This document shows, one piece after another, positions 1,041 through 64,000 of a stretch of 64,000 nt of DNA (the stretch's first letter is position 1; each line of letters begins with the position of its first letter). The stretch comes from Sulfuricurvum sp. (lineage in GTDB: Bacteria; Campylobacterota; Campylobacteria; Campylobacterales; Sulfurimonadaceae): the NCBI GenBank assembly GCA_028718525.1, contig JAQULP010000006.1, positions 40,458 through 104,457 of the forward strand. The letters are read 5' to 3'. A program made the position numbers and the translations under genes. The notes beneath the pieces were generated by a model, which was not told the origin of the DNA, searched no databases, and saw only the letters and a program-made list of their open reading frames with translations.

Positions 1041-3154
1041 TCTATACCGATCACGAGAGCGTACGTCGGGATATCCGGTGGCTCGCAACCCAGTGTTCCC
1101 TCCCCCATCTGGCCTCTTCGCGTTTATCCGCGTATGAATATGACGCGCTCGAGCAAAAGATCACGGCCTCTGAAGATTCGGCGGTTACCGCTTTTTTGGA
1201 TACCTTTTTTGATGCGTTCAAACTGAAAAAACCCCACTGGAGCAAAACCCTGACCCATGAATCGCTCCCCTGCCTCGCCCTTGTCCCCGGAGAAGGGGTA
1301 CGGGTGATTTTGGAGCGCGAAGCCGACGGATCATGGATGAGCGACGGGGTTTCGGGGGTACGCCGGGATACCCATTTTATGGCCGGAACCCTCTTTGCAC
1401 CGATCAAAAACATCCGTGAATCCGAAGGGAAGCTCTCCGCTTCAAACATGTTCAAAGCGATAGCCTATCGTCAAAAACCGATCATCGTCTATGCGGCTAT
1501 CGCCTCGCTCAGCATCAATATTCTCGCCTTAGGGACCTCATTTTACAGCATGCAGGTTTACGACCGGGTCATTCCGACCCATGGGATATCGACTCTGATC
1601 GCCCTGAGTATCGGAGTATTTATCGCCGTATTTTTGGAGATGGTTTTAAAACTTTCCCGCTCCTCCATCCTCGATCACGCTTCCAAAAATATGGACGTCG
1701 CCTACTCGCACGATATCTTCGCCCGCTTTTTGAAAATACGTTCCGATGCCCTCCCCAAAAGTATCGGAACCTTGTCGGGACAGCTCCAAAGCTATGCGAC
1801 GGTCCGATCTTTCATCTCCTCGGCGGCGATGTATTTCGCAATCGACTTCCCCTTCTCGATGATTTTTTTAGCGGTGATTATCCTGATTGCCGGATGGACG
1901 ATGGGGTTCATCGCCCTGGCCTTTTTAATCGTTTCCATCATAACGGGGACGATTTTTCGCAAAAAGATCGAACACCTCTCCAAAACCTCGTCGATGGCCT
2001 CCCACAAAAAACTGGGGCTTCTGGTCGAAACGGTCGAAAATGCCGAAAACGTCAAAGCGACAGGGGCGGGGTGGAGTATCCTCAGCCGATGGAACGCCCT
2101 TACCGAAGAGGGGATTCATGACGATATCCTTATCCGCCACTACAGCGAGATGTCGAGCTATATGGCCGCCTTTTTTCAGCAGCTCAGCTACGTCGCCCTC
2201 GTCGCGGCGGGTTCTTATCTGGTCAGCACCACCGATACCCTCACGATGGGGGGACTCATCGCCGTTACTATCCTCTCGGGTCGGGTCCTCTCTCCCATCG
2301 CGTCGCTGCCGAATTTGCTTGTACAGTGGGGGAGAACCAAAATTGCGGTCAACGATTTAGACCGCGTCTACGCCCTCCCAAGCGACAATGAAGGGGTCGA
2401 CCGCCCCCTCTCTCCGTCGATCATCGAACCGCGGTTCGAATGCCGCGGCATCACCTTCGGCTACGGCAAAGATATGGCGGCGATCCAGATCCCCAAGCTC
2501 ACCATTAATCCCGGGGAGAGGATCGCGGTGCTAGGTTCCGTCGGCTCGGGAAAATCGACCCTGCTTAAACTCCTCTCCGGTTTATATATGCCTCAGGAGG
2601 GGAAATTGCTGATCAACGGAATCGATATCCACCACATCTCCCGCAATCGCCTCAATGAGACCATCGGCTATCTTCCCCAAAACGTCAAACTCTTCTCCGG
2701 AACGCTCCGCGACAACCTCCTTGCCGGACTGGTCGGGATCGAAGACGAAGCGATTATCCAAGCCGCCCAGAAAAGCGGCCTTATCCACCTGATCAATTCT
2801 CTGCCGCAAGGGCTCGATACTCCGGTCCCCGAAGGGGGAGAATCGGTTTCAGGAGGGCAAAAACAGATCATTGCCATTACACGGATGCTCCTTGCTTCAC
2901 CGAAAGTCTGGCTGCTGGATGAACCGACGGCAAGCATGGATGAGGCAACCGAAAGACATATCCTGAACCTCCTGCATCATAACGTTTCTGCCGATCAAAG
3001 CCTCATTGTCGTGACCCACAAACCGGCCATATTACGGGTCATTGACCGCATTATCGTCATGACCCCTCAGGGCGTCGCGATGGACGGCCCTCGGGATGCG
3101 GTACTCAAAGAGCTGCAAGAGCGCGCCACTTCAGTACAACAAGGGAAACAATGA
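1037..3154 (+). CDS. Type I secretion system permease/ATPase (LapB-like ABC transporter)
   Basis: Walker A GSVGSGKST, signature VSGGQKQ, Walker B VWLLDEPTASMD; N-terminal peptidase-like region plus TM domain; start MIYTDHES at about 1037. Confidence 0.9.
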   Translation: MIYTDHESVRRDIRWLATQCSLPHLASSRLSAYEYDALEQKITASEDSAVTAFLDTFFDAFKLKKPHWSKTLTHESLPCLALVPGEGVRVILEREADGSWMSDGVSGVRRDTHFMAGTLFAPIKNIRESEGKLSASNMFKAIAYRQKPIIVYAAIASLSINILALGTSFYSMQVYDRVIPTHGISTLIALSIGVFIAVFLEMVLKLSRSSILDHASKNMDVAYSHDIFARFLKIRSDALPKSIGTLSGQLQSYATVRSFISSAAMYFAIDFPFSMIFLAVIILIAGWTMGFIALAFLIVSIITGTIFRKKIEHLSKTSSMASHKKLGLLVETVENAENVKATGAGWSILSRWNALTEEGIHDDILIRHYSEMSSYMAAFFQQLSYVALVAAGSYLVSTTDTLTMGGLIAVTILSGRVLSPIASLPNLLVQWGRTKIAVNDLDRVYALPSDNEGVDRPLSPSIIEPRFECRGITFGYGKDMAAIQIPKLTINPGERIAVLGSVGSGKSTLLKLLSGLYMPQEGKLLINGIDIHHISRNRLNETIGYLPQNVKLFSGTLRDNLLAGLVGIEDEAIIQAAQKSGLIHLINSLPQGLDTPVPEGGESVSGGQKQIIAITRMLLASPKVWLLDEPTASMDEATERHILNLLHHNVSADQSLIVVTHKPAILRVIDRIIVMTPQGVAMDGPRDAVLKELQERATSVQQGKQ

Positions 3155-4320
3155 AAACCTCCCCTCTACCTTACGCCGCACGGATCAATCCGGTCTGGAT
3201 CATCATCGGTTCGCTCCTCATCGTGATTATCCCTTTTTTCGTATGGGCATCCAATGCCCGAATCGATCAAATCTCCCACGCACAAGGGCAAGTCATTGCC
3301 TCGGCCAAAACACAGGAGATCCAGTCGGCTAATGACGGAGTGATCGAAAAAATCTACGTTCGCGAGGGGCAAAAGGTTAAAAAAGGGGAGCGCCTTGCGG
3401 TACTGGAGCGTTCTCAGTCCCAGGCTTCGTATGACGACAGCCGGGCCAAAGTTGCCGCGCTTCAGGCGGCACTGACCCGTTTACGCGCCGAAGTATACGG
3501 CAAAGAGCTCACCTTTTCCCCTCTGGCAAAAATGTATCCCGAATTTGTCGATAACCAAACGGCACTCTTTCACCGTCGGCAACAGGCCCTAAACGATGAA
3601 ATTTCAGCACTGAACGAATCGCTCAAACTGGCTCAGGATGAGCTCAATCTTAACCTCCCTCTCCTCGAAAACGGTGATATCGGCGCTACCGAAATTATCC
3701 GTATTAAACGTCAAATCGCCGATTTGAAAGGGCAGATTTCCAATAAACGGAATAAATACTTTCAAGACTCCCAGGCGGAGATGACCAAAGCCGAAGAGGA
3801 GCTCTCCACCAAAGAGCAGGAGCTCAATGACCGCACCATTACGCTCGAACGCACCGTCATCAATGCCCCGATGGATGCTATCGTCAAAAATATCATCCTG
3901 ACGACCCAGGGGGCCCGTGTACGCCCCGGAGACGTCATTTTAGAACTCGTCCCCTCAGGAGACCGCCTGATCATCGAAGCCAAACTCAGCCCGGCGGATA
4001 TCTCTTTTATCAAAGCGGGGCAAAAAGCGGCGATCAAACTCGATGCCTACGATTACAGCATTTACGGTATCTTTGAGGGAAAAGTAAGCTATATCAGCCC
4101 CGATACGCTGATCGAAAAAACGGCACAGGGGGATAAATACTATTTTCGGGTTCAACTGAGCCTTGATCAAAACGAGCTTATTTCCAAATCGGGGAAAAAG
4201 ATTGAAATTGCACCGGGAATGTCGGCACAGGTCGATATCATTACCGGAAACCGAAGCGTCTTAACCTATCTGGCCAAACCAATGGTTAAAACCCTCGGCG
4301 AATCGTTTCACGAGCGTTAA
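3151..4320 (+). CDS. HlyD-family type I secretion periplasmic adaptor
   Basis: N-terminal TM, biotinyl-lipoyl like DGVIEKIYVREGQKVKKGERL, long coiled coil, C-terminal barrel; overlaps the upstream ABC gene. Confidence 0.9.
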   Translation: MKTSPLPYAARINPVWIIIGSLLIVIIPFFVWASNARIDQISHAQGQVIASAKTQEIQSANDGVIEKIYVREGQKVKKGERLAVLERSQSQASYDDSRAKVAALQAALTRLRAEVYGKELTFSPLAKMYPEFVDNQTALFHRRQQALNDEISALNESLKLAQDELNLNLPLLENGDIGATEIIRIKRQIADLKGQISNKRNKYFQDSQAEMTKAEEELSTKEQELNDRTITLERTVINAPMDAIVKNIILTTQGARVRPGDVILELVPSGDRLIIEAKLSPADISFIKAGQKAAIKLDAYDYSIYGIFEGKVSYISPDTLIEKTAQGDKYYFRVQLSLDQNELISKSGKKIEIAPGMSAQVDIITGNRSVLTYLAKPMVKTLGESFHER

Positions 4321-5663
4321 GACATAAGCGCTATCAGATGATTGACCGTCTCTTCGTAGCGGGTCATCTTCATCGAATCTTGGGAGAGAAACTCCTCCAT
4401 CTTCTCTTTTTTGCCAATTGCTTCATCCAGTTCCCGGTCACTCCCTTTGACGTATGCACCGATCCGAATCAGCATCTCATTCTCTTTTAATAACGTATAC
4501 AAACGGCGAAAACGGCGAACGGCGGCAAGATGTTCCGCCGATATTATGTCGTTCATTACCCGCGATGCGGAATTCAGAATATGGATCGGAGGATATATCC
4601 CAAAATCGGTCAGCTCGCGCGAAAGGACGATATGCCCGTCCAAAATCGATCGGGACTGATCGGCAATCGGATCGCTCATATCGTCCCCCTCAACCAAAAC
4701 CGTAAAAAATGCGGTAATCGAACCGCTCCCCTCCTCTTTACCGGCGCGCTCCATCAGTTGCGGCAAAAGCGTCAGGGAAGAAGGGGGATACCCTTTGGAG
4801 GTGGGAGGCTCCCCGAGTGCGAGACCGATTTCACGCTGTGCCATTGCAAAACGGGTCACCGAGTCCATCATAAACAAGACATCGTGTCCGCGGGATTTAA
4901 AATATTCGGCGACACTCATGGCACTAAATGCGCCGTACTTGCGCATCAACGGCGAATCATCCGAAGTCGCGACCACCAAAACCGTATTCTCTAGATTTCC
5001 GCCAAGCGATTTTTCGATAAATTCGGGAACTTCGCGCCCCCGTTCACCGATTAGGGCAACCACTTTGATGGGGGCATCCGCTCCGCGGACAATCATCCCC
5101 ATTAACGTCGATTTCCCCACGCCGCTTCCGGCAAAAATTCCCAGTTTTTGCCCTTTTCCGCACGTAAGCAATCCATCAATCGTTTTTACCCCGACACTGA
5201 ATACTTCGTCAATCATCCCCCGTTTCATGGCCGCGATGGGTGCTTTAATGATAGATTCCAGGTGGCTCCCCCCGATAGGACCTTTCCCGTCAATCGGATT
5301 CATAAACGGGTCAACAACCCGACCGAGCAACCCATCCCCTACCTCGATCAGCATACCGCTTTGATTCGGGTAGATTTTATCCCCGGCCCGAAAACCTTCA
5401 ATAAAGCGAAACGGGGTAATAAAAAAGCGGTTCCTCTCTACTTCACTCACCATCCCCAGTGCCGAAGTACCGTTCATTTCACTGACCATCATGACCGTAT
5501 CACCGATACTTACATGCAACCCTTCCGCAATGATCACGGTAGGACTGATTTTTGTGACGGTACCGAATACGGTTGTCAGTTTTTCACTTCCCAAACGGCT
5601 GCGCAGCGCTTTGAGCGGCATGTTTAACATTCTCCCGATGCGGGCAGCCTCAGCAGATTGCAA
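4317..5663 (-). CDS. fliI: Flagellar protein export ATPase FliI
   Basis: GIFAGSGVGKSTLMGMIVR, VVALIGERGREVPEFIE, F1-beta-like ATPase of FliI type. Confidence 0.93.
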   Translation of the reverse strand: MQSAEAARIGRMLNMPLKALRSRLGSEKLTTVFGTVTKISPTVIIAEGLHVSIGDTVMMVSEMNGTSALGMVSEVERNRFFITPFRFIEGFRAGDKIYPNQSGMLIEVGDGLLGRVVDPFMNPIDGKGPIGGSHLESIIKAPIAAMKRGMIDEVFSVGVKTIDGLLTCGKGQKLGIFAGSGVGKSTLMGMIVRGADAPIKVVALIGERGREVPEFIEKSLGGNLENTVLVVATSDDSPLMRKYGAFSAMSVAEYFKSRGHDVLFMMDSVTRFAMAQREIGLALGEPPTSKGYPPSSLTLLPQLMERAGKEEGSGSITAFFTVLVEGDDMSDPIADQSRSILDGHIVLSRELTDFGIYPPIHILNSASRVMNDIISAEHLAAVRRFRRLYTLLKENEMLIRIGAYVKGSDRELDEAIGKKEKMEEFLSQDSMKMTRYEETVNHLIALMS

Positions 5664-5724
5664 AAGAGACGGCTCTCTTTGCGGCTAACATGGGCGTTGC
5701 TTATGGTTGTGCATCCCATGACGG

Positions 5725-6327
5725 CTAGTAACGGTTCCCGCTGGAAGAGTTGATAAGGCTGAAAAACTCCATCCGTGTTTTCTCATCCCGTTTGAACAAC
5801 CCGCGCAAGGCACTTGAGGTCGTCGTTGAGCTTATTTTTTCGACTCCGCGCATCTCCATACACATATGGCGCGCCTGAATCACTACGGCCACCCCTTTGG
5901 GAGAGACCGCCTGCATCAGAGCATCGGCAATCTGTTCGGTCAGCTGTTCTTGAATCTGCATCCGCCGTGCAAATACATCGACGACACGGGGAATTTTCGA
6001 AAGGCCGACCACTTTTCCATCCGGAATATAGGCCACGTGAGCCCGTCCGATTATCGGAAGCAGATGATGTTCGCAAGTAGAATAAAATTCAATATCTTTA
6101 ATCAACACCATCTCATCGTTACTGCTGGCAAACATCGCCGAATTCAAAATATTTTGAGGATCTTCCTTGTACCCCCCGAACATGAACTCATACGCTTTCA
6201 ACACCCGGTGGGGGGTCTTTTCCAGCCCCTCACGATTTACATCTTCTCCGACGTAACGGATCATGGTTTTTACCGCTTCTTCAAAATTTTGCTGTTCTGT
6301 TGCGTTTGACATCGACTCTCTCATCAC
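5725..6327 (-). CDS. folE: GTP cyclohydrolase I
   Basis: [44 protein letters not shown] motifs. Confidence 0.95.
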
Positions 6328-6452
6328 GAATAATATTGTTACACGGACTTTATCACGTCTTAGCTTTTATTTTAATTCAGCATAGCATTAACCCTTTTTG
6401 GATATTATTGCCACCATTTAGTCTACTAAGACAACGTAACAAAGGGATTTTA

Positions 6453-7748
6453 ATGCAAATAACCACCAACAAAATCGACTCAGCCAACGCAAAAATCAAT
6501 GCGGCCATCACTCGCGGAACCATCGATGCCAACATCGAAAAAATCGCGCAACAGCTCTCTAAAGAGGCTAAAATTGCCGGTTTCCGCAAAGGAAAAGTAC
6601 CTGTTAGCGCAGTAAAAAAACAATACGGTGAACGTTTGGTTCAAGATGCAGAAGCACAAGCACTACGTGACCTTTTGAATACCGCCCTTGAAGAGATGGC
6701 CATTGCAGCCGATACCCTTATCGGTGAACCTCAAATTGCTAAATTCGATAAAAATGAAAACGGTATCGACGTTGAAGTCGTTGTCGCTATGCGCCCGGCT
6801 ATCGAACTTGGCGATTATGCTGCAATGGTCCCGGATGTTGCCAAACCTGCTATTGACGATGCGGCTATTACCGCACGTATCGAAGAACTTGCATCCGCAC
6901 AGGCACCTTTTGTCAATGTCGAGGAAGATCGTCCGTTGGTAAGCGGTGACACGGCTCTTATTGACTTTGAAGGATTTGTTGACGGTGAAGCATTCGAAGG
7001 CGGTAAAGCAGAAGGGTTCTCACTTCGCCTAGGGAGCGGACAGTTCATCCCTGGATTCGAAGATCAAGTGATCGGTATGAAAAAAGATGAAGAGAAAACC
7101 ATTGACGTAACTTTCCCTGAAAACTACGGCGGGAAACAGCTAGCCGGCAAAGCTGCTCAATTCAAAGTAAAAGTTCATGCGATCCAAGCAAAAGAAGCGG
7201 TCGTACTGGATGATGAATTGGCGAAAAAAATGCTTCCTGGTTTTGAAGACGCAACTTTGGATATGCTGAAAGAAAAAGTAAAAGAGCAACTCGAAAGCGA
7301 AGCGATGAGCGCCCTTTACAATAACGAGCTTAAACCGTCGTTGATGGAAACATTCGTAAGCGCATTCACGATCGATCTTCCTGAATTCATTGTAGAGCAA
7401 GAGATGGATATGGCTTTGAATAAAAAAGCGCGCGAAATGAACGAAACGGAAATTGAAGAGCTTCGAAACGATGCGGAAAAAGTAAAAGCGCTACGTGAAA
7501 CCTTCCGTGATGATGCTTCCCGTGCCGTAAAAGCAACGTTTATCGTTGATGCTTTGGCAAAAGCGGAAAACATCCTTGTAAACGAACAAGAGTTGATGCA
7601 AACGATCTATTACGAAGCGATGCAAATGGGTCAAGATCCTGCAGCCGTTTACAAACACTACCAAGAATCCGGTTACCTTCCGGCAATTCAAATGGCGATG
7701 ATTGAAGACCGCGTATTGAGCAAATTACTTAACGATAAAATCAAGTAA
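6453..7748 (+). CDS. tig: Trigger factor
   Basis: [26 protein letters not shown] ribosome-binding motif; FKBP-like [41 protein letters not shown]. Confidence 0.95.
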
Positions 7749-7753
7749 TTACG

Positions 7754-8350
7754 ATGAGCTACATCCCTTACGTCATTGAAAAAACGGGGCGCGGAGAGCG
7801 CTCGTATGACATTTATTCACGTCTTCTCAAAGATCGTATTATTATGCTAAGCGGAGAGGTTCACGACGGTGTCGCTTCTTCGATTGTAGCCCAATTGCTC
7901 TTTTTGGAAGCGGAAGACCCTCAAAAAGATATCTATTTTTACATCAATTCCCCGGGTGGGGTTATCACCTCGGGAATGGCGATTTACGATACGATGAACT
8001 ATATTCGCCCTGATGTGTGTACTATCTGTATCGGCCAAGCCGCATCCATGGGGGCATTTTTGCTCAGTTCGGGTGCAAAAGGGAAGCGCTACGCCCTTCC
8101 TCACGCACGCATCATGATCCACCAGCCTCTTGGCGGTGCACAAGGGCAGGCAACCGATATCGAAATTCAGGCCAAAGAGATTTTGCGCATGAAAGCGGAA
8201 CTTAACGAAATTTTGGCCAAAAACTGCGGACAAAGCGTTAAAAAACTTGAAAAAGATACAGACCGAGATAATTTTATGTCAGCCGCAGAAGCGGTAACAT
8301 ATGGTATTATTGACGAAGTATTGGTTCAAAAAGAAAAAGAAGAAAAGTAA
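7754..8350 (+). CDS. clpP: ATP-dependent Clp protease proteolytic subunit
   Basis: [69 protein letters not shown]. Confidence 0.97.
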
Positions 8351-33973: not shown

Positions 33974-34912
33974 ATGTTCAATGGCATAAAAGATTCGATA
34001 AAAGCTAAACTTTATGATTTTGCTTATACACCGTTTATGAGTTCGTATGTCATATCGTGGATATTATTTAATCATAAATATTTACTTGTTTATTTTAGTG
34101 GGAGCACCCTTGATAATAAACTTCAGTATTTGGAAAAATGTCATATAGAATTTTTGTTTCCACTGTATATTGCATTGATTTATGTCTTTATCTATCCTGC
34201 ATTAGCACTGATATTTTATTATGCAACACTTTGGTATAACAAACAATCTATGGCGATTAAACAGCGTATTGAAGATGAAACCCCAGTAACGCAGGAACAA
34301 GCTCGTGAACTTAAACATGAACATTATAAGTTAGCTGATGAACGAGATAAAGCACTCGATAAACTCAAAGAGAAGGAAAAAGAACATACTGAAGTTTTAG
34401 AAAATGCTCTTAAACCTTTACAAAATGAAATTGAAGCCTATAAAGTTGCCGCTAATGTTTCAAATACAATGATTGATTCTTTAAAAGCTGAAAGAGAAGA
34501 TATGATAATGCAACATGATACAGCAACAAATACTTACAAAAAAACAATTAGTGAACTTGAGCAACAAATTACTAATTTGAAATTACCAGCATATGTCGTA
34601 GCTAATGACCCAGTAATATTAAAAGAACCCATAAAAAATATTCCTATTCCATTAGCTTCAACACCAAAAGAAGATGATCGAACAAAAATTTTGAGATTTT
34701 TTTATGAAAGTAACTATAAAACTAAATTACGTAGTAATGTTCTTGATGCTATTGTTGATACAACCAAAATGGCACGACCAAAAGCTACAATTATCTTAGC
34801 TGATTTAATCAAAGAAAATATTTTACTTTCCGATCAATATGATTATATTTCGATTACAGATATTGGCAATAAAACGCTACTAAATTTATTTGATAAATCA
34901 ATCGAAATTTAG
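33974..34912 (+). CDS. Membrane-anchored coiled-coil protein of unknown function
   Basis: Two N-terminal TM segments (YVISWILFNHKYLLVYF; FLFPLYIALIYVFIYPALALIFYY), long coiled coil, C-terminal winged-helix-like region. Confidence 0.65.
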   Translation: MFNGIKDSIKAKLYDFAYTPFMSSYVISWILFNHKYLLVYFSGSTLDNKLQYLEKCHIEFLFPLYIALIYVFIYPALALIFYYATLWYNKQSMAIKQRIEDETPVTQEQARELKHEHYKLADERDKALDKLKEKEKEHTEVLENALKPLQNEIEAYKVAANVSNTMIDSLKAEREDMIMQHDTATNTYKKTISELEQQITNLKLPAYVVANDPVILKEPIKNIPIPLASTPKEDDRTKILRFFYESNYKTKLRSNVLDAIVDTTKMARPKATIILADLIKENILLSDQYDYISITDIGNKTLLNLFDKSIEI

Positions 34913-34922
34913 AGAGATGTTG

Positions 34923-36593
34923 ATGACAAACGCAGAACTGCAAAATTTATTTAATACTCTTCTCTTTCAACCTGAAAATGAAATTGTTGAGTTCAAAGAA
35001 GCAAAAAATACTTATGATTTTTCAAAGCTTGGTAAATATTTTTCAGCTCTTTCCAACGAAGCCAATTTACACGGACAATCTTATGCGTGGCTTATTTTTG
35101 GGGTTATTGATAAAACACGAGAAATTATTGGATCAAATTTCCGTTTACAGCGTTCTGATTTAGACAGTCTCAAAGGTGGAATTGCCAATAAAACAACAGG
35201 CAGAATCACATTTATTGAAATTTACGAGCTAATTGTAAATAACAAACGAATTGTGATGTTTCAAATACCTGCTGCGCCTAAAGGTTTACCAATAGCCTTT
35301 GATGGTCATTATTACGGTCGGGATGGTGAAGAACTATTTGCCCTCAATTTAGAAGAGATTGAACGTATTCGATCACAAGCTACACAGGAAGATTGGAGTG
35401 CTGCTATCGTTGAAAATGCAACTTTTGAGGATTTAGATGATGATGCACTACAAGTCGCTCGGCAAAAGTTCAAAGAAAAACATATCAAAGATAAATATTA
35501 TGACCAAATTGATAGTTGGACAATAGAACAGCTTTTGGATAAAGCTAAGGTAACTGTAGGAGGGAAAATTACCCGTGCTGCTTTGTTGCTGTTAGGCAAT
35601 GCAGGTGCAGTTCATAAACTTTCTCCTCACCCCGCTCAAATTACATGGAAATTGGAAACTGAAGAGCGTGCGTATGAACATTTCAATCCACCTTTTTTGC
35701 TAACGACTACAAAAGTTTATCAACAGATCCGTAATATCAAACAAAAACTTTTTCCACGCAATCAATTGATTGCCACTGAGGTTATGAAATACGATAACCG
35801 TGTTGTCCTTGAAGCTTTGCACAACTGCCTTGCTCATCAAGATTATTTACAAAATGGGCGTATCCTTGTAACAGAAAGAGTAGATCGTTTGATTTTCGAA
35901 AATGCTGGTGGTTTTTTCGAAGGAGTCGCGGAAGATTACTTTACGGGAGAAAAAACACCGGGAAAATATCGTAATCCTTGGTTGGCAAATGCAATGGTAG
36001 AATTGGGGATGATCGATACAATGGGATACGGTATTCATACGATGACCGTTGAACAAAAAAATCGTTTTTTCCCACTCCCTGATTATAGCAAATCGGATAC
36101 GAATAAGGTTGTTTTAGAAATTTTTGGACATTCACTGGATGAAAATTATTCTCTTCTTTTACTGGAAAAAAAGGAACTGGATATCACAACGATCATTTTA
36201 CTGGATCGAGTCCAAAAACGTCTCCCTATCTCTGATGAATCTGCAACCCGTTTAAAGAAAGTGAAACTAATTGAAGGGCGTAAACCGCATTACATCATTG
36301 CTGCTCATATTGCAGAAGTTACAGGACAAAAAGCTGAGTATATAAAAACAAGAGGATTAGATGATCAACATTACAAAGTTTTAATTATTGATTATCTTAA
36401 AAAATTCAAAAAGGCAAATAAAAGCGAACTCACTAATTTCATTTTAGATAAGCTACCTGATATTTTAGATGAGCAACAAAAACAAAATAAGATTAGAAAC
36501 ATTTTATATGCTATGTCTAAAAAGGACAAAACTATCGTGTTTTCTGGGTCTTCTCAAAAAGGCGTATGGATTTTATCAGATAAAAAAATTTAG
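34923..36593 (+). CDS. AlbA_2 (Schlafen-like) DNA-binding / GHKL ATPase domain protein, copy 1
   Basis: NEIVEFKEAKNTYDFSKLGKYFSALSNEAN…LIFGV; EALHNCLAHQDYLQNGRI; NPWLANAMVELGMIDTMGYGI; start MTNAELQ at about 34923. Confidence 0.75.
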   Translation: MTNAELQNLFNTLLFQPENEIVEFKEAKNTYDFSKLGKYFSALSNEANLHGQSYAWLIFGVIDKTREIIGSNFRLQRSDLDSLKGGIANKTTGRITFIEIYELIVNNKRIVMFQIPAAPKGLPIAFDGHYYGRDGEELFALNLEEIERIRSQATQEDWSAAIVENATFEDLDDDALQVARQKFKEKHIKDKYYDQIDSWTIEQLLDKAKVTVGGKITRAALLLLGNAGAVHKLSPHPAQITWKLETEERAYEHFNPPFLLTTTKVYQQIRNIKQKLFPRNQLIATEVMKYDNRVVLEALHNCLAHQDYLQNGRILVTERVDRLIFENAGGFFEGVAEDYFTGEKTPGKYRNPWLANAMVELGMIDTMGYGIHTMTVEQKNRFFPLPDYSKSDTNKVVLEIFGHSLDENYSLLLLEKKELDITTIILLDRVQKRLPISDESATRLKKVKLIEGRKPHYIIAAHIAEVTGQKAEYIKTRGLDDQHYKVLIIDYLKKFKKANKSELTNFILDKLPDILDEQQKQNKIRNILYAMSKKDKTIVFSGSSQKGVWILSDKKI

Positions 36594-59635: not shown

Positions 59636-61030
59636 ATGAAAACTAAAATCATGGGTATCGGTGCATCAGTAACTTTGCTAACAATATTAAGCGGATGCGG
59701 AGGCGGCAGCTCCTCATCTAGTTCATCAGCGTTGCAAACGGGTAGCGTTGTTGATTCGAATATCAGTGGCTTGGAGTATGCGTGTCGTAAATTGGATGGC
59801 TCATTAGACACAAATGGCACAACCGATTCGGGCGGGAGATTCCAGTACAATATCGGTAGTAACTGTACGTTTAAAGTAGGTGATTTAGTCATCGGAAATG
59901 TTGTTATGTCACAGGCAAATAAAATTATTACACCGATTGATATGATGAAAGCAACCGATATGAATGATACAAATGTGACTAATCTCGCGTTATTCTTTCA
60001 ATCACTGGATGAAGATGGGAACGCATCGAACGGCATTCAGCTAGCTCATGCAAAACTTTTGTTTGCAGGTGCTTCGAGCTTTGATTTCGCCAGTGCGGAT
60101 GAAAATACTACTTTTTCAATGGTACAAGGCCGTTTTTCCGGAGCTAAAAAAGTGACGGCTATTGAAGCTCGCGAACATTTTCAAGCGACTTTGACAAATC
60201 TCGGTTTACTTGGCATCCCGGGTGGAGGGTCGGGAGGTTCGACTGAGAGTAATCTTACCTGCGATACTTCTAAATTTGCATCCGGTGCAAACGTTGCAAC
60301 TCCGACATCAATGGACTGGCTCTCTTTTGCAGGGACGTATATAGCGGATGAAGGTAGTTACGATGATAATTTTAACTTTACCGCTTCTAAACAGATTATG
60401 GTTTCACTAAGTGCTACAGGGGGATTGCTTTACACGGGCAGTACGCCTACACCGACTACATCGGCATGTGTTGAGACGCTTTCGGGCGGAAGTAAACAAA
60501 TGGTACTTCATACTACTAAAGGGCATCTCGATTTTGGCAGTGATAAAACATCGATTAGCGGTGTATCTCCGGTGGACGGCACGACCATTGTTAAAACGCA
60601 TGCCACATCAACGGGTGGAAATACTGGAGGAAACACAGGCGGCAGTGGTGTAACCTTTCCAAATGGTACAATAGTTTCGAGTACAAGCACAGTAACTTAT
60701 ACAGCTTTGCAAAGTAATGCAAACGGAAAAATCATTACGTTTACGGGTACCAATGGCGCTACGGTAAAGATATATGATTATGTGGACTATATTAGTGTTG
60801 GGATGGGTGAAGCAGGATATTCAATCGTTACAAAAGCTGATTACAACGGCTGTGCTATTAGCTCTGCACCAAATATTACAGCATATTATCCATCCTGTAC
60901 AGATGTTGGGGTGAATTTTAATCGGACAGCAGGAACGATCAGTTTCACAAATGCACAAATGAAATCAGTGGTCGGTAGCTGCTCAGGATCGTGTCAAGCA
61001 AATGGTTCATTATCATTTACCGGGTATTAA
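59636..61030 (+). CDS. Putative lipoprotein
   Basis: Lipobox LLTILSGCGGGSSSSSSS; low-complexity STGGNTGGNTGGSG linker. Confidence 0.65.
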   Translation: MKTKIMGIGASVTLLTILSGCGGGSSSSSSSALQTGSVVDSNISGLEYACRKLDGSLDTNGTTDSGGRFQYNIGSNCTFKVGDLVIGNVVMSQANKIITPIDMMKATDMNDTNVTNLALFFQSLDEDGNASNGIQLAHAKLLFAGASSFDFASADENTTFSMVQGRFSGAKKVTAIEAREHFQATLTNLGLLGIPGGGSGGSTESNLTCDTSKFASGANVATPTSMDWLSFAGTYIADEGSYDDNFNFTASKQIMVSLSATGGLLYTGSTPTPTTSACVETLSGGSKQMVLHTTKGHLDFGSDKTSISGVSPVDGTTIVKTHATSTGGNTGGNTGGSGVTFPNGTIVSSTSTVTYTALQSNANGKIITFTGTNGATVKIYDYVDYISVGMGEAGYSIVTKADYNGCAISSAPNITAYYPSCTDVGVNFNRTAGTISFTNAQMKSVVGSCSGSCQANGSLSFTGY

Positions 61031-61325
61031 AATGTAATTAGTCGATGATTGGTTAGCGGGAATAAATGATAGTTGTTTCAGGGAAACTTTCTAAATAGAG
61101 AGAATCTCGTGGAACAAAGAATGGGGGGATACAATTAATAAAGATATTTTTGGAGAAATTTAATGGCATGATTTGTTGGTGGACCCTAGCTCAACCAACA
61201 TATGCCTATATTACGATATTTTTATTGATACATTGATAATGATACCCCTATAAGTACCCCAAAAAAGTGATGCTTATATGCTGGTAATACCGGACTATAG
61301 TTATGACCTCACGGCATAGGGTAAA

Positions 61326-61355
61326 TGTCTAAAAAAAATGTCTAACAATGTCTAA
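61326..61355 (-). repeat. Three TTAGACA copies (plus strand TGTCTAA) downstream of AlbA_2 copy 2
   Basis: Copies at 61326-61332, 61339-61345, 61349-61355. Confidence 0.75.
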
Positions 61356-61432
61356 AAAAGTAACTTTTAGGCATTGCTCTTGATGCTTGCCTTTAATAAT
61401 TTATTTTTTCTATCTCTAATTTATTAAAGCGA

Positions 61433-63145
61433 TCAAATGCCGCAAAGTACCCATTTTGGCTTAGTATTGCTACCTTTATTGCATATCTTCTTTAATTTAT
61501 TTGAGAGTTCATTGATTAAATTATTAATCTTTGTCTTTCTTTGATTATCGCTTAAATTATCGGGTAGCTTTTTCCATAATAGCTCATCAAGCTCTTTGCG
61601 AGTCATTGAGCCATGATGCTGTATAGCTTGTTCAATTAGGTCGAAATAATATTTTTTATCGAAAGCTCTGTTCTTTGTATACTCTGCCTTCTCGCCCGTT
61701 GCTTTCGCCACTGAAGCAGAAACATATACATTTGGTTTTCGCCCCTCAATCAACCCTTTATCACGTAGATATTTAAGTGCCTCATCTGTACTAGGAAGAT
61801 GTTTAACGACACGATCCAGTGCGATAACATCATGCAAACTAAGTTCGGGATTCATAGCCAAAAGTTTTGCATACCGCACATCTAGGATTTGTCCAAAAAT
61901 GGTGACTTCTACGCGATTGGGTTCAATTTTGTAGTTCGGCATAGGGAAAAAACGCTGTCGAAGTTTGGAGTAAATACGTTTAATACCACTGCCTATGGTA
62001 TCGATCATATTGATTTCGACCATTGCTTGACATAGGAACGGGTTGCGATACAGCTCAGGCGGTGCGTCGCGTTCTATAACATTTTCAACATTTTCGGGGA
62101 TGAAGCTTCCGACGTTTGAAAATACGAGTCGATCAGGGAACTCGACAACATTGATACGACCACCCATTTCATAGTCTTGGTGAGCAATACAGTTGTGCAG
62201 GGCTTCGTAAATGATCCAAGGGTCGTATTTGTCTATCTCATCGGGGAAAAGCTTGCTGTCCGCCATATAACGATATTTATAATTTCGGATTTTTGCATGA
62301 ACTTTTTGTGCGCTGATAAGTAACGGTAATTCAAAATGTTCATACCCCTGCTCTATGCCGTCACGGTCTTTTAATACCCATGTGATGCGTGGAACAGCGG
62401 GAGAGAGCAGATGCACTGATTCCGTTTTTCCCAATAGCAATAGGGTGCTATTGGTGATTTTACTATCAAGCGTGAGCTTGGCTTTGTTGAGAAACGTTCT
62501 GTCATCCCATTGCGTGACCTCTTTTGAGAGGTTCGGATGTTTGGTGATGTATTCCGTTCTCGCCAAACGTACCGCTTCGGGATCAAGATTTTCGAGTGTT
62601 GCCCCCGCACATATATGCGCTGACCAATCATCCGTTTTTCCTAATGCCTCTGCCAAAATAGAGGTTTCTCGTTCGGGTCTGAGTTCGATGAGGCTGTCGC
62701 CGCTTCGTTGCCATGCTTTGTTATGAGCATATACGGGCTTGCGCGGGAGATGTTTCGGGACATGGACGATCCAAACGGTTCGACCCGTATCGGTTGTTGT
62801 ATGAGCTTCTACAGATAGCCCCTCACTGCTGAGATTCGGGCAAACCCCTAGTAATCGATGGGGGAGTGTTTCGGGTGTGTAGTCGTGGAATTTTTCGATA
62901 CCTACGATGTCGAGCGTACTATCTTTGACACCGATAACGATATGCCCGCCGTTCATGTTGGCGATAGCTGAAACATACGTGGCTAAATCTTCACCTTTTC
63001 CACCTGAAATGCTATGTTTGAGATTTTTAAACTCTTTCCATTCGCACGCTTCGTTTTCTTTTGGATAGTGGGCTTTGAGATGATTTTGGAGTTCTATAGC
63101 TGTCATTCCGTTTTCCTCTCCCATCGTTTGCTCATTTTGATTCAA
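61433..63145 (-). CDS. AlbA_2 (Schlafen-like) DNA-binding / GHKL ATPase domain protein, copy 2
   Basis: NEACEWKEFKNLKHSISGGKGEDLATYVSAIANMNGGHIVIGV; EALHNCIAHQDYEMGGRI; NPFLCQAMVEINMIDTIGSGIKRIY. Confidence 0.8.
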   Translation of the reverse strand: MNQNEQTMGEENGMTAIELQNHLKAHYPKENEACEWKEFKNLKHSISGGKGEDLATYVSAIANMNGGHIVIGVKDSTLDIVGIEKFHDYTPETLPHRLLGVCPNLSSEGLSVEAHTTTDTGRTVWIVHVPKHLPRKPVYAHNKAWQRSGDSLIELRPERETSILAEALGKTDDWSAHICAGATLENLDPEAVRLARTEYITKHPNLSKEVTQWDDRTFLNKAKLTLDSKITNSTLLLLGKTESVHLLSPAVPRITWVLKDRDGIEQGYEHFELPLLISAQKVHAKIRNYKYRYMADSKLFPDEIDKYDPWIIYEALHNCIAHQDYEMGGRINVVEFPDRLVFSNVGSFIPENVENVIERDAPPELYRNPFLCQAMVEINMIDTIGSGIKRIYSKLRQRFFPMPNYKIEPNRVEVTIFGQILDVRYAKLLAMNPELSLHDVIALDRVVKHLPSTDEALKYLRDKGLIEGRKPNVYVSASVAKATGEKAEYTKNRAFDKKYYFDLIEQAIQHHGSMTRKELDELLWKKLPDNLSDNQRKTKINNLINELSNKLKKICNKGSNTKPKWVLCGI

Positions 63146-63654
63146 CCTGTCGATTTTTTTCGTGTAAATAAATTACGAATCTTATCTTTTATATCTTTTT
63201 GATGATATTCATCAATTTTTACTTTAAGTTCTCGTTTCATAGTCGTTCTTAACACGATTTTTAATTTAGGTGAGAACAGCTTATCAAAAGATGTTTGTTC
63301 CTCTATACACCGTTCAATCGCAGAATCCAAAAACTGAAAAATATCTTCTGAAAATTTTGTTTTCTCTTGATAACTTACATCTTGAAGGGCAATGTCCCAA
63401 AATTGCCCAAAAGAATTCCAACGTTTAATCCAAATACCAAGAGAATCAATTCTTTTTAATGATTGTTCCGAAAGATTAATTACTTCAAAGTCAAAAAAAT
63501 ATTCTGTTGACTTTAGATTTAATAGAGAAGGTCTTCCGCTAGCGTTTATTTTAAATCGACGTTTGATATAAAATTCGTACACTGCCCATCCAAATGCAGC
63601 AATTGTTGCAATATCTGAAGCTATCCCAATACTATCTTTAAAATCATAAGCCAC
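63142..63654 (-). CDS. Single-TM hypothetical protein, coupled to AlbA_2 copy 2
   Basis: ASDIATIAAFGWAVYEFYIKRRF TM; overlaps the downstream gene by 4 nt; GTG start overlaps an upstream TAG. Confidence 0.65.
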   Translation of the reverse strand: MAYDFKDSIGIASDIATIAAFGWAVYEFYIKRRFKINASGRPSLLNLKSTEYFFDFEVINLSEQSLKRIDSLGIWIKRWNSFGQFWDIALQDVSYQEKTKFSEDIFQFLDSAIERCIEEQTSFDKLFSPKLKIVLRTTMKRELKVKIDEYHQKDIKDKIRNLFTRKKSTG

Positions 63655-63757
63655 TAATTTCCCTTCACAATCGCAATATCATCTACATTCAATCCATAAA
63701 GTGCATACACCATCGCATCGATCTTCTTGTATTGATTTTTTGAAAGAGTGACAAATT
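63654..63757 (-). pseudogene. C-terminal remnant of a restriction/methylase-like gene
   Basis: Minus-strand frame …FVTLSKNQYKKIDAMVYALYGLNVDDIAIVKGN* with an in-frame stop just upstream; resembles the ID..VYALYGL..(E/D)DI.IV tail of Eco57I/TaqI-class enzymes. Confidence 0.5.
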
Positions 63758-63879
63758 ATGTGCCTCACTGTTAAAGTGAAAATATTATAGCGGATTTTTT
63801 AGGGGTGTTTTTTTCTGCTGACACAGAGTAAAAGAGATTCTTTAAATTTGGAAGTATTTATTTGAGGAGGATTTAAAAC

Positions 63880-64000
63880 GCCAATTCAAATTTAAAGTGC
63901 AACAGGGTTGATCAAGAGGTTGTAGATTAGAGTCGATTTTATCCGACCAGAGATAAAGGGACTTTCATGAGTTACAACCAATTGACCATGGTACAACGAT
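63880..64000 (+). mobile_element. Left end and transposase start of an IS30-family-like element, truncated by window
   Basis: Terminal ORF MSYNQLTMVQR at 63967 matches the typical IS30 transposase N-terminus; upstream AATTCAAATTTAAAGTGCAACAGGGTTG is IS30-end-like. Confidence 0.5.

Follow-up and report, generated by a model that had tools for sequence, protein, structure and literature searches.

Contig C6 of the Sulfuricurvum genome studied here ends inside an insertion sequence (IS), at base 64000 of the window (the whole 64,000-nucleotide stretch that we analysed; G000:C6:40458-104457). Close to this edge the minus strand carries a TM gene of 170 aa (63142..63654), which has homologues in genomes G065 and G417, followed by a gene (61433..63145) whose product matches the Pfam domains SLFN_AlbA_2 (PF04326, E 1.7e-12) and HATPase_c_4 (PF13749, E 2.5e-14). 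Judged by its homologues, this AlbA_2 gene probably starts at the ATG at 63109. Upstream of the TM gene, the minus-strand frame from 63757 to 63654 reads FVTLSKNQYKKIDAMVYALYGLNVDDIAIVKGN up to its stop; it ends with IDAMVYALYGLNVDDIAIVKGN, like the tail of a type IIG restriction-modification (RM) enzyme. Its TAG (63656-63654) and the GTG of the TM gene (63654) overlap by one G. The IS end, termed IS30-like in the initial annotation, occupies 63879..64000 on the plus strand. An identical end, with its boundary at CGCCAATTCAAATTTAAAGTGCAACA, is found on five other contigs, and since it thus closes six contigs at the same boundary, it belongs to a multi-copy element that fragments the assembly. 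An NCBIfam scan of the 38-aa IS C-terminus gave no IS match, only 11 N-terminal and 38 C-terminal residues of the element being to hand, and an Rfam scan of 61000-64000 gave no match either. The initial annotation had seen here a decapitated RM gene, translationally coupled to the TM gene and truncated near an IS; the overlap at 63654 and the IS boundary at 63879 agree with its coupling and its nearby IS end.

We compared the 33-aa tail with the PADLOC models of type IIG RM enzymes. One match (E 0.0038) covers profile positions 1041-1062 of 1066, and two more type IIG models are matched at positions 1119-1144 of 1148 and 1219-1244 of 1247, in all cases the C-terminal end. A comparison at the DNA level pairs the block 63724-63658 with the 3' termini of intact RM genes, at E values down to 5e-15. 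The assignment of the tail to an RM C-terminus in the initial annotation is thereby confirmed. However, the gene is not decapitated. A DNA search with window positions 63640-63835 returns two separate blocks in the intact type IIG RM gene of Sulfuricurvum sp. 17-40-25 (locus L016, corresponding to G048:C31), which encodes 1038 aa. The head block (query 41-99, window 63795-63737) aligns with the 5' end of this gene (E 1.3e-13) and the tail block (query 112-167, window 63724-63669) with its 3' end (E 6e-8). The two blocks are 12 bp apart in the window, but 3.1 kb apart in G048, which indicates that the RM gene has been internally deleted.

The intact gene starts with TTG TCA CTT TTT CAA AAA, behind CGCTATAAT...TGAGGCACATAA, and the window carries CGCTATAAT...TGAGGCACATAATTTGTCACTCTTTCAAAAA between the IS and the RM tail. 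On the minus strand, the retained head thus comprises a TATAAT (63784..63789), the presumed -10 element of the RM promoter, where CGCTATAAT precedes intact RM genes, fused remnants and truncated heads with the same spacing; a GAGG (63763..63766), the presumed Shine-Dalgarno sequence (SD) of the RM gene according to the alignment with intact RM leaders; and the TTG start with about six codons (LSLFQK, 63737..63754). It is followed by the junction (63725..63736), where about 3 kb of the RM body are missing and which is similar in G060 and G065, and by the last ~23-25 codons of the RM gene with their TAG (63654..63724), identified by the REase_MTase_IIG C-termini of PADLOC and by the intact 3' ends. 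The window fragment (63754-63654) is thus the remnant of a type IIG RM gene, both ends of which match intact members. With about 6 + 23 codons it lacks the nuclease, methylase and specificity domains altogether, and the Pfam domains of the family (Eco57I, N6_Mtase, TaqI_C and HSDR_N) are present in the intact relative only.

Intact members of the family suggest what the tail may be used for. Frequently the start codon of the following gene overlaps the RM stop or lies no more than a few bases from it (TAGTG, TGATG and GTGA overlaps), and in many intact genes the last RM codons (IVEG, ATT GTG GAG GGG) supply a GGAGG SD. At most intact loci, the start of the downstream gene, here termed cargo, overlaps the RM stop and its SD lies inside the RM tail. 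In these relatives RM gene and accessory gene therefore form a single operon, of which the window has a remnant only. The presumed SD of the TM gene, GAAGGG (63661..63666, minus strand), occupies the same place as the GGAGGG of intact tails before coupled cargo, from which it differs by one change. The cargo nearly always differs between RM loci and includes an Mrr-like nuclease, RhuM, FRG, SieB, DUF3800 and PIN proteins.

The TM protein is 71% identical to its homologue in G065 and 62-65% identical to that in G417 (a different family), and dN/dS values of 0.24 and 0.27 for the G065 and G417 homologues indicate purifying selection. Pfam, PADLOC and NCBIfam scans of the protein gave no match, it was not found in a plasmid search, and an AlphaFold model based on three sequences was discarded (mean pLDDT 39.8). 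The AlbA_2 protein is 80-82% identical to homologues in G061 and G048, also with a dN/dS indicative of purifying selection (0.16). Its relatives outside Sulfuricurvum are nearly all from Bacteroidales; inspection by eye of the neighbours of 42 tabulated loci revealed varied genes and no recurring RM tail upstream of AlbA_2. We had considered a fixed TM-AlbA_2 pair and dropped this idea, since in G065 the TM gene sits behind an RM remnant without AlbA_2 and in G417 it stands alone. Together with G076, where a decayed TM homologue lies within an array of TM genes, and with the varied genes that precede AlbA_2 in Bacteroidales, this suggests that TM and AlbA_2 can be exchanged as cargo independently of each other. 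The purifying selection on both suggests that they stayed functional after the RM enzyme was lost.

Two observations concern related genes. The array in G076 (L089, G076:C20:186000-202000) contains four neighbouring genes for putative membrane proteins at 4444-7854, near the stop-bearing TM homologue and with neither RM nor AlbA_2 genes nearby. The window itself has a second pair of overlapping genes (33974-36593, plus strand), coding for a 312-aa membrane protein and a 567-aa AlbA_2-type protein that is 38% identical to the AlbA_2 protein described above; it is inserted between an apparent dnaN and gyrB.

The locus probably belongs to an island at a tRNA-Ala gene, at which an allelic series is found. 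In G048, the tRNA-Ala is followed by a tyrosine integrase and then by the intact RM gene, two unrelated proteins of 317 and 338 aa and AlbA_2; the window has the RM remnant, TM and AlbA_2; G061 has the RM promoter before AlbA_2; and G073 has the promoter before TM322. In G061 and G073 the RM promoter lies 72 bp after the tRNA-Ala(GGC). On the minus strand, 14 bp of the tRNA-Ala 3' end are repeated at 61177..61190 (GCTAGGGTCCACCA). This repeat presumably marks the right att site, since it also follows AlbA_2, in the same context, in G061 and G048. In all three genomes it lies 170-280 bp past the AlbA_2 stop, always after GGTTGA. Moreover, the right flank, consisting of a SurA-like gene and its neighbours, is common to the window, G048 and G073. 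No integrase was seen in the part of the window that extends from the att repeat to the IS. The tRNA-Ala of the window genome and the same left-flank genes are located at the start of contig C11, beside what appears to be the other IS end, and synteny suggests that C11, the IS and C6 are joined. The initial annotation had proposed an ancestral operon of RM, TM and AlbA_2. Its outer members are supported by G048, where at the orthologous site an intact RM gene heads an operon that ends in an AlbA_2 gene whose product is ~80% identical; the middle genes, however, are unrelated. A search of other genomes for an intact RM-TM-AlbA_2 operon found none, nor was an intact RM gene found directly before this TM gene in relatives.

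Head-to-tail fusions of this kind, which we call scars, recur in at least five further Sulfuricurvum genomes (G065, G046, G060, G058 and, with a degenerate tail, G045), and six more (G070, G066, G068, G047, G061 and G073) have a head with traces of a tail or a head alone. Since these are metagenome-assembled genomes, assemblies may contain errors; the scars nevertheless recur in independent genomes. According to the alignment the breakpoints differ, leaving ~6-9 head codons in the window, G065 and G060, ~19 in G070 and ~20 in G046. The RM promoter is retained in all scars notwithstanding these different breakpoints. The tail is less constant, being degenerate in G045 and G066 and absent from G061, G068 and G073, which suggests that some loci do without the tail SD. 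The window and G065 have the same 31-bp leader TCACTTTAACAGTGAGGCACATAATTTGTCA, although the synonymous sites of their TM genes have diverged (dS 0.74). Counted from the conserved TTG, the fusion is in frame over 43 codons in G046 and over 31 in G065. The fused ends are out of frame in the window, G060, G058, G045 and G070; here the frame stops after 21 codons (window), after 4 codons (G060) or early (the other three).

The cargo behind scars and truncated heads is diverse: PemK with an unnamed partner, a SIR2-like protein, PIN, Shedu with a Ymh protein, nSTAND/Mrr and a ParE-type toxin. Some cargos occur with the RM gene in different states. The PIN cargo is common to G077, where a C-terminal part of the RM gene runs open into the edge of the contig, and to the scar of G060; the DUF3800 cargo is common to G056, with an intact RM gene, and G063, in which the RM gene is split by inserted genes; and the AlbA_2 cargo is found behind an intact RM gene (G048), a scar (window) and a promoter only (G061). 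Conversely, the similar junctions of the window, G065 and G060 precede two cargos (TM, TM and PIN, respectively), a hint that they may represent one scar allele with exchanged cargo. The scars are not confined to tRNA-Ala. Those of G060, G058 and G045 lie near a tRNA-Gly(TCC), at which no att repeats were found, and G046, G066 and probably G047 have a third site in common, at dus. At dus (L155 in G046, L157 in G066 and L162 in G047), the RM leader stands before three cargos: a 76-aa protein, a 1422-aa nSTAND/Mrr protein and a ParE-type toxin pair. As for the split gene of G063 (L165, G063:C22:186000-200000, positions 2218-6284), it consists of a 73-aa head, ~3 kb of other genes and a 270-aa tail fragment, and it precedes the same DUF3800 cargo as the intact gene of G056.

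The best reading of these data is an RM operon with exchangeable, coupled cargo, which has lost its enzyme and retains the promoter and the SD in the last codons for the cargo. For the window, we consider it likely that the remnant goes back to a type IIG RM gene of a small defence operon in the tRNA-Ala island, and that the ends of this gene were kept with the promoter and the tail SD serving the cargo. The RM gene would have headed this operon in an island integrated at tRNA-Ala in a Sulfuricurvum-type bacterium. An internal deletion would then have removed the ~3 kb coding region and spared the promoter, the ribosome-binding site and the first codons as well as the last ~23 codons. Transcription probably still starts from the RM promoter with the TATAAT at 63784-63789; the former RM start would now open a short frame ending at an out-of-frame stop, the TM gene would be translated from the GAAGGG (63661-63666) in the RM tail, and AlbA_2 would come next, slightly overlapping or closely spaced. 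The IS would have arrived separately, between the tRNA and the RM promoter. Among deletions that remove the enzyme, those that keep promoter and SD would be the ones to persist, because the RM promoter then continues to drive the cargo (here TM and then AlbA_2) and the tail SD its translation; and the kept ends, together with a leader that is unchanged between the window and G065 in the face of the divergence of their TM genes, suggest that the surviving ends are those that the cargo needs.

That the IS instead cut the RM gene, leaving the tail on this side and the head on another contig, was suggested by the initial annotation and by the position of the element, whose end lies only ~90 bp upstream of the RM head block at a point where the contig breaks. 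This explanation now seems scarcely tenable. The tail is separated from the IS by the RM promoter, SD and start (63795-63737), scars that have no IS beside them exist in G060 and G058 (at tRNA-Gly), G046 and G065, and no homologous RM gene was detected at E 1e-100 in the rest of the window's own genome, which is 83% complete. Alternatively, leader and tail could be neutral debris, with the cargo expressed from a promoter of its own or of the IS. The IS upstream in the window, the broken frames of most scars and the degenerate tails of G045 and G066 are what one would expect of debris. Nevertheless, we regard this as unlikely, given that the promoter is kept in every scar with different breakpoints and that TCACTTTAACAGTGAGGCACATAATTTGTCA is identical in the window and G065 at a TM dS of 0.74.

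The in-frame fusions of G046 and G065 raise yet another possibility, namely that a functional small protein, or a leader peptide, is made from the joined ends and controls the cargo. We demoted this candidate, as the frame is broken in most scars: the out-of-frame stops in the window, G060, G058, G045 and G070 make a conserved mini-protein very unlikely. If the operon lost its enzyme and retained its expression signals, the cargo probably works without the RM enzyme, and its survival argues against a strict dependence of the effector on that enzyme. Whether in this genus the RM ends form a lasting expression socket for unrelated defence genes, exchanged at several chromosomal sites with or without the enzyme, is a more tentative idea, which we think possible rather than probable. 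One end of such a socket would provide promoter and start, and the last codons at the other end would provide the ribosome-binding site.

Effector genes embedded in R-M operons are known from PrrC in the EcoprrI locus and from the HEPN, RhuM and ApeA families, and ApeA is linked to R-M operons in epsilonproteobacteria (PMC3710099, PMC12707154). As in PrrC-type operons, an effector-type gene is joined in an operon with an RM gene to which it is unrelated, and RhuM and Ymh, both named in that literature, are also among the cargo found here. In contrast to them, the enzyme is a single-chain type IIG protein whose stop overlaps the cargo start, the cargo varies by locus, and the window retains the RM ends only. 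Defence hotspots at tRNA genes with only an integrase have been described in the E. coli pan-genome (PMC10121019). The tRNA-Ala target, the tyrosine integrase beside it in G048, the presumed att repeat and the variable defence content resemble these hotspots; on the other hand, no integrase was seen between att repeat and IS in the window, and the variable genes are arranged behind one conserved RM leader. In the literature searched, the coverage of which is incomplete, no description was found of RM-leader scars or of type IIG genes repeatedly reduced to their promoter and coupled tail, with varied cargo.

The scars offer an evolutionary series in which accessory defence genes, once attached, may outlive the restriction enzyme. 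This matters for the question of whether effectors linked to RM genes guard the RM enzyme, in the way PrrC does, or act as independent defences and simply make use of its expression signals. The leader of ~60 bp might moreover be used in practice to locate defence genes not yet known from these bacteria, because most of the nameable cargo behind it or behind intact RM genes can be assigned to defence-type or toxin families (Shedu, SIR2-like, PIN, FRG, SieB, RhuM, Mrr, PemK and ParE).

Finally, the RM enzymes themselves are unevenly conserved. Both ends of the scar correspond to those of an intact Eco57I/TaqI-like type IIG enzyme (PADLOC REase_MTase_IIG), but the window copy has become a remnant without catalytic and specificity domains. 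Among RM genes such as those of G048:C35, G056:C33, G056:C98 and G077:C35, conservation is far higher over the first ~213 residues (78-90%) than in the remainder of the protein, as though the nuclease end had been kept and the specificity part shuffled.
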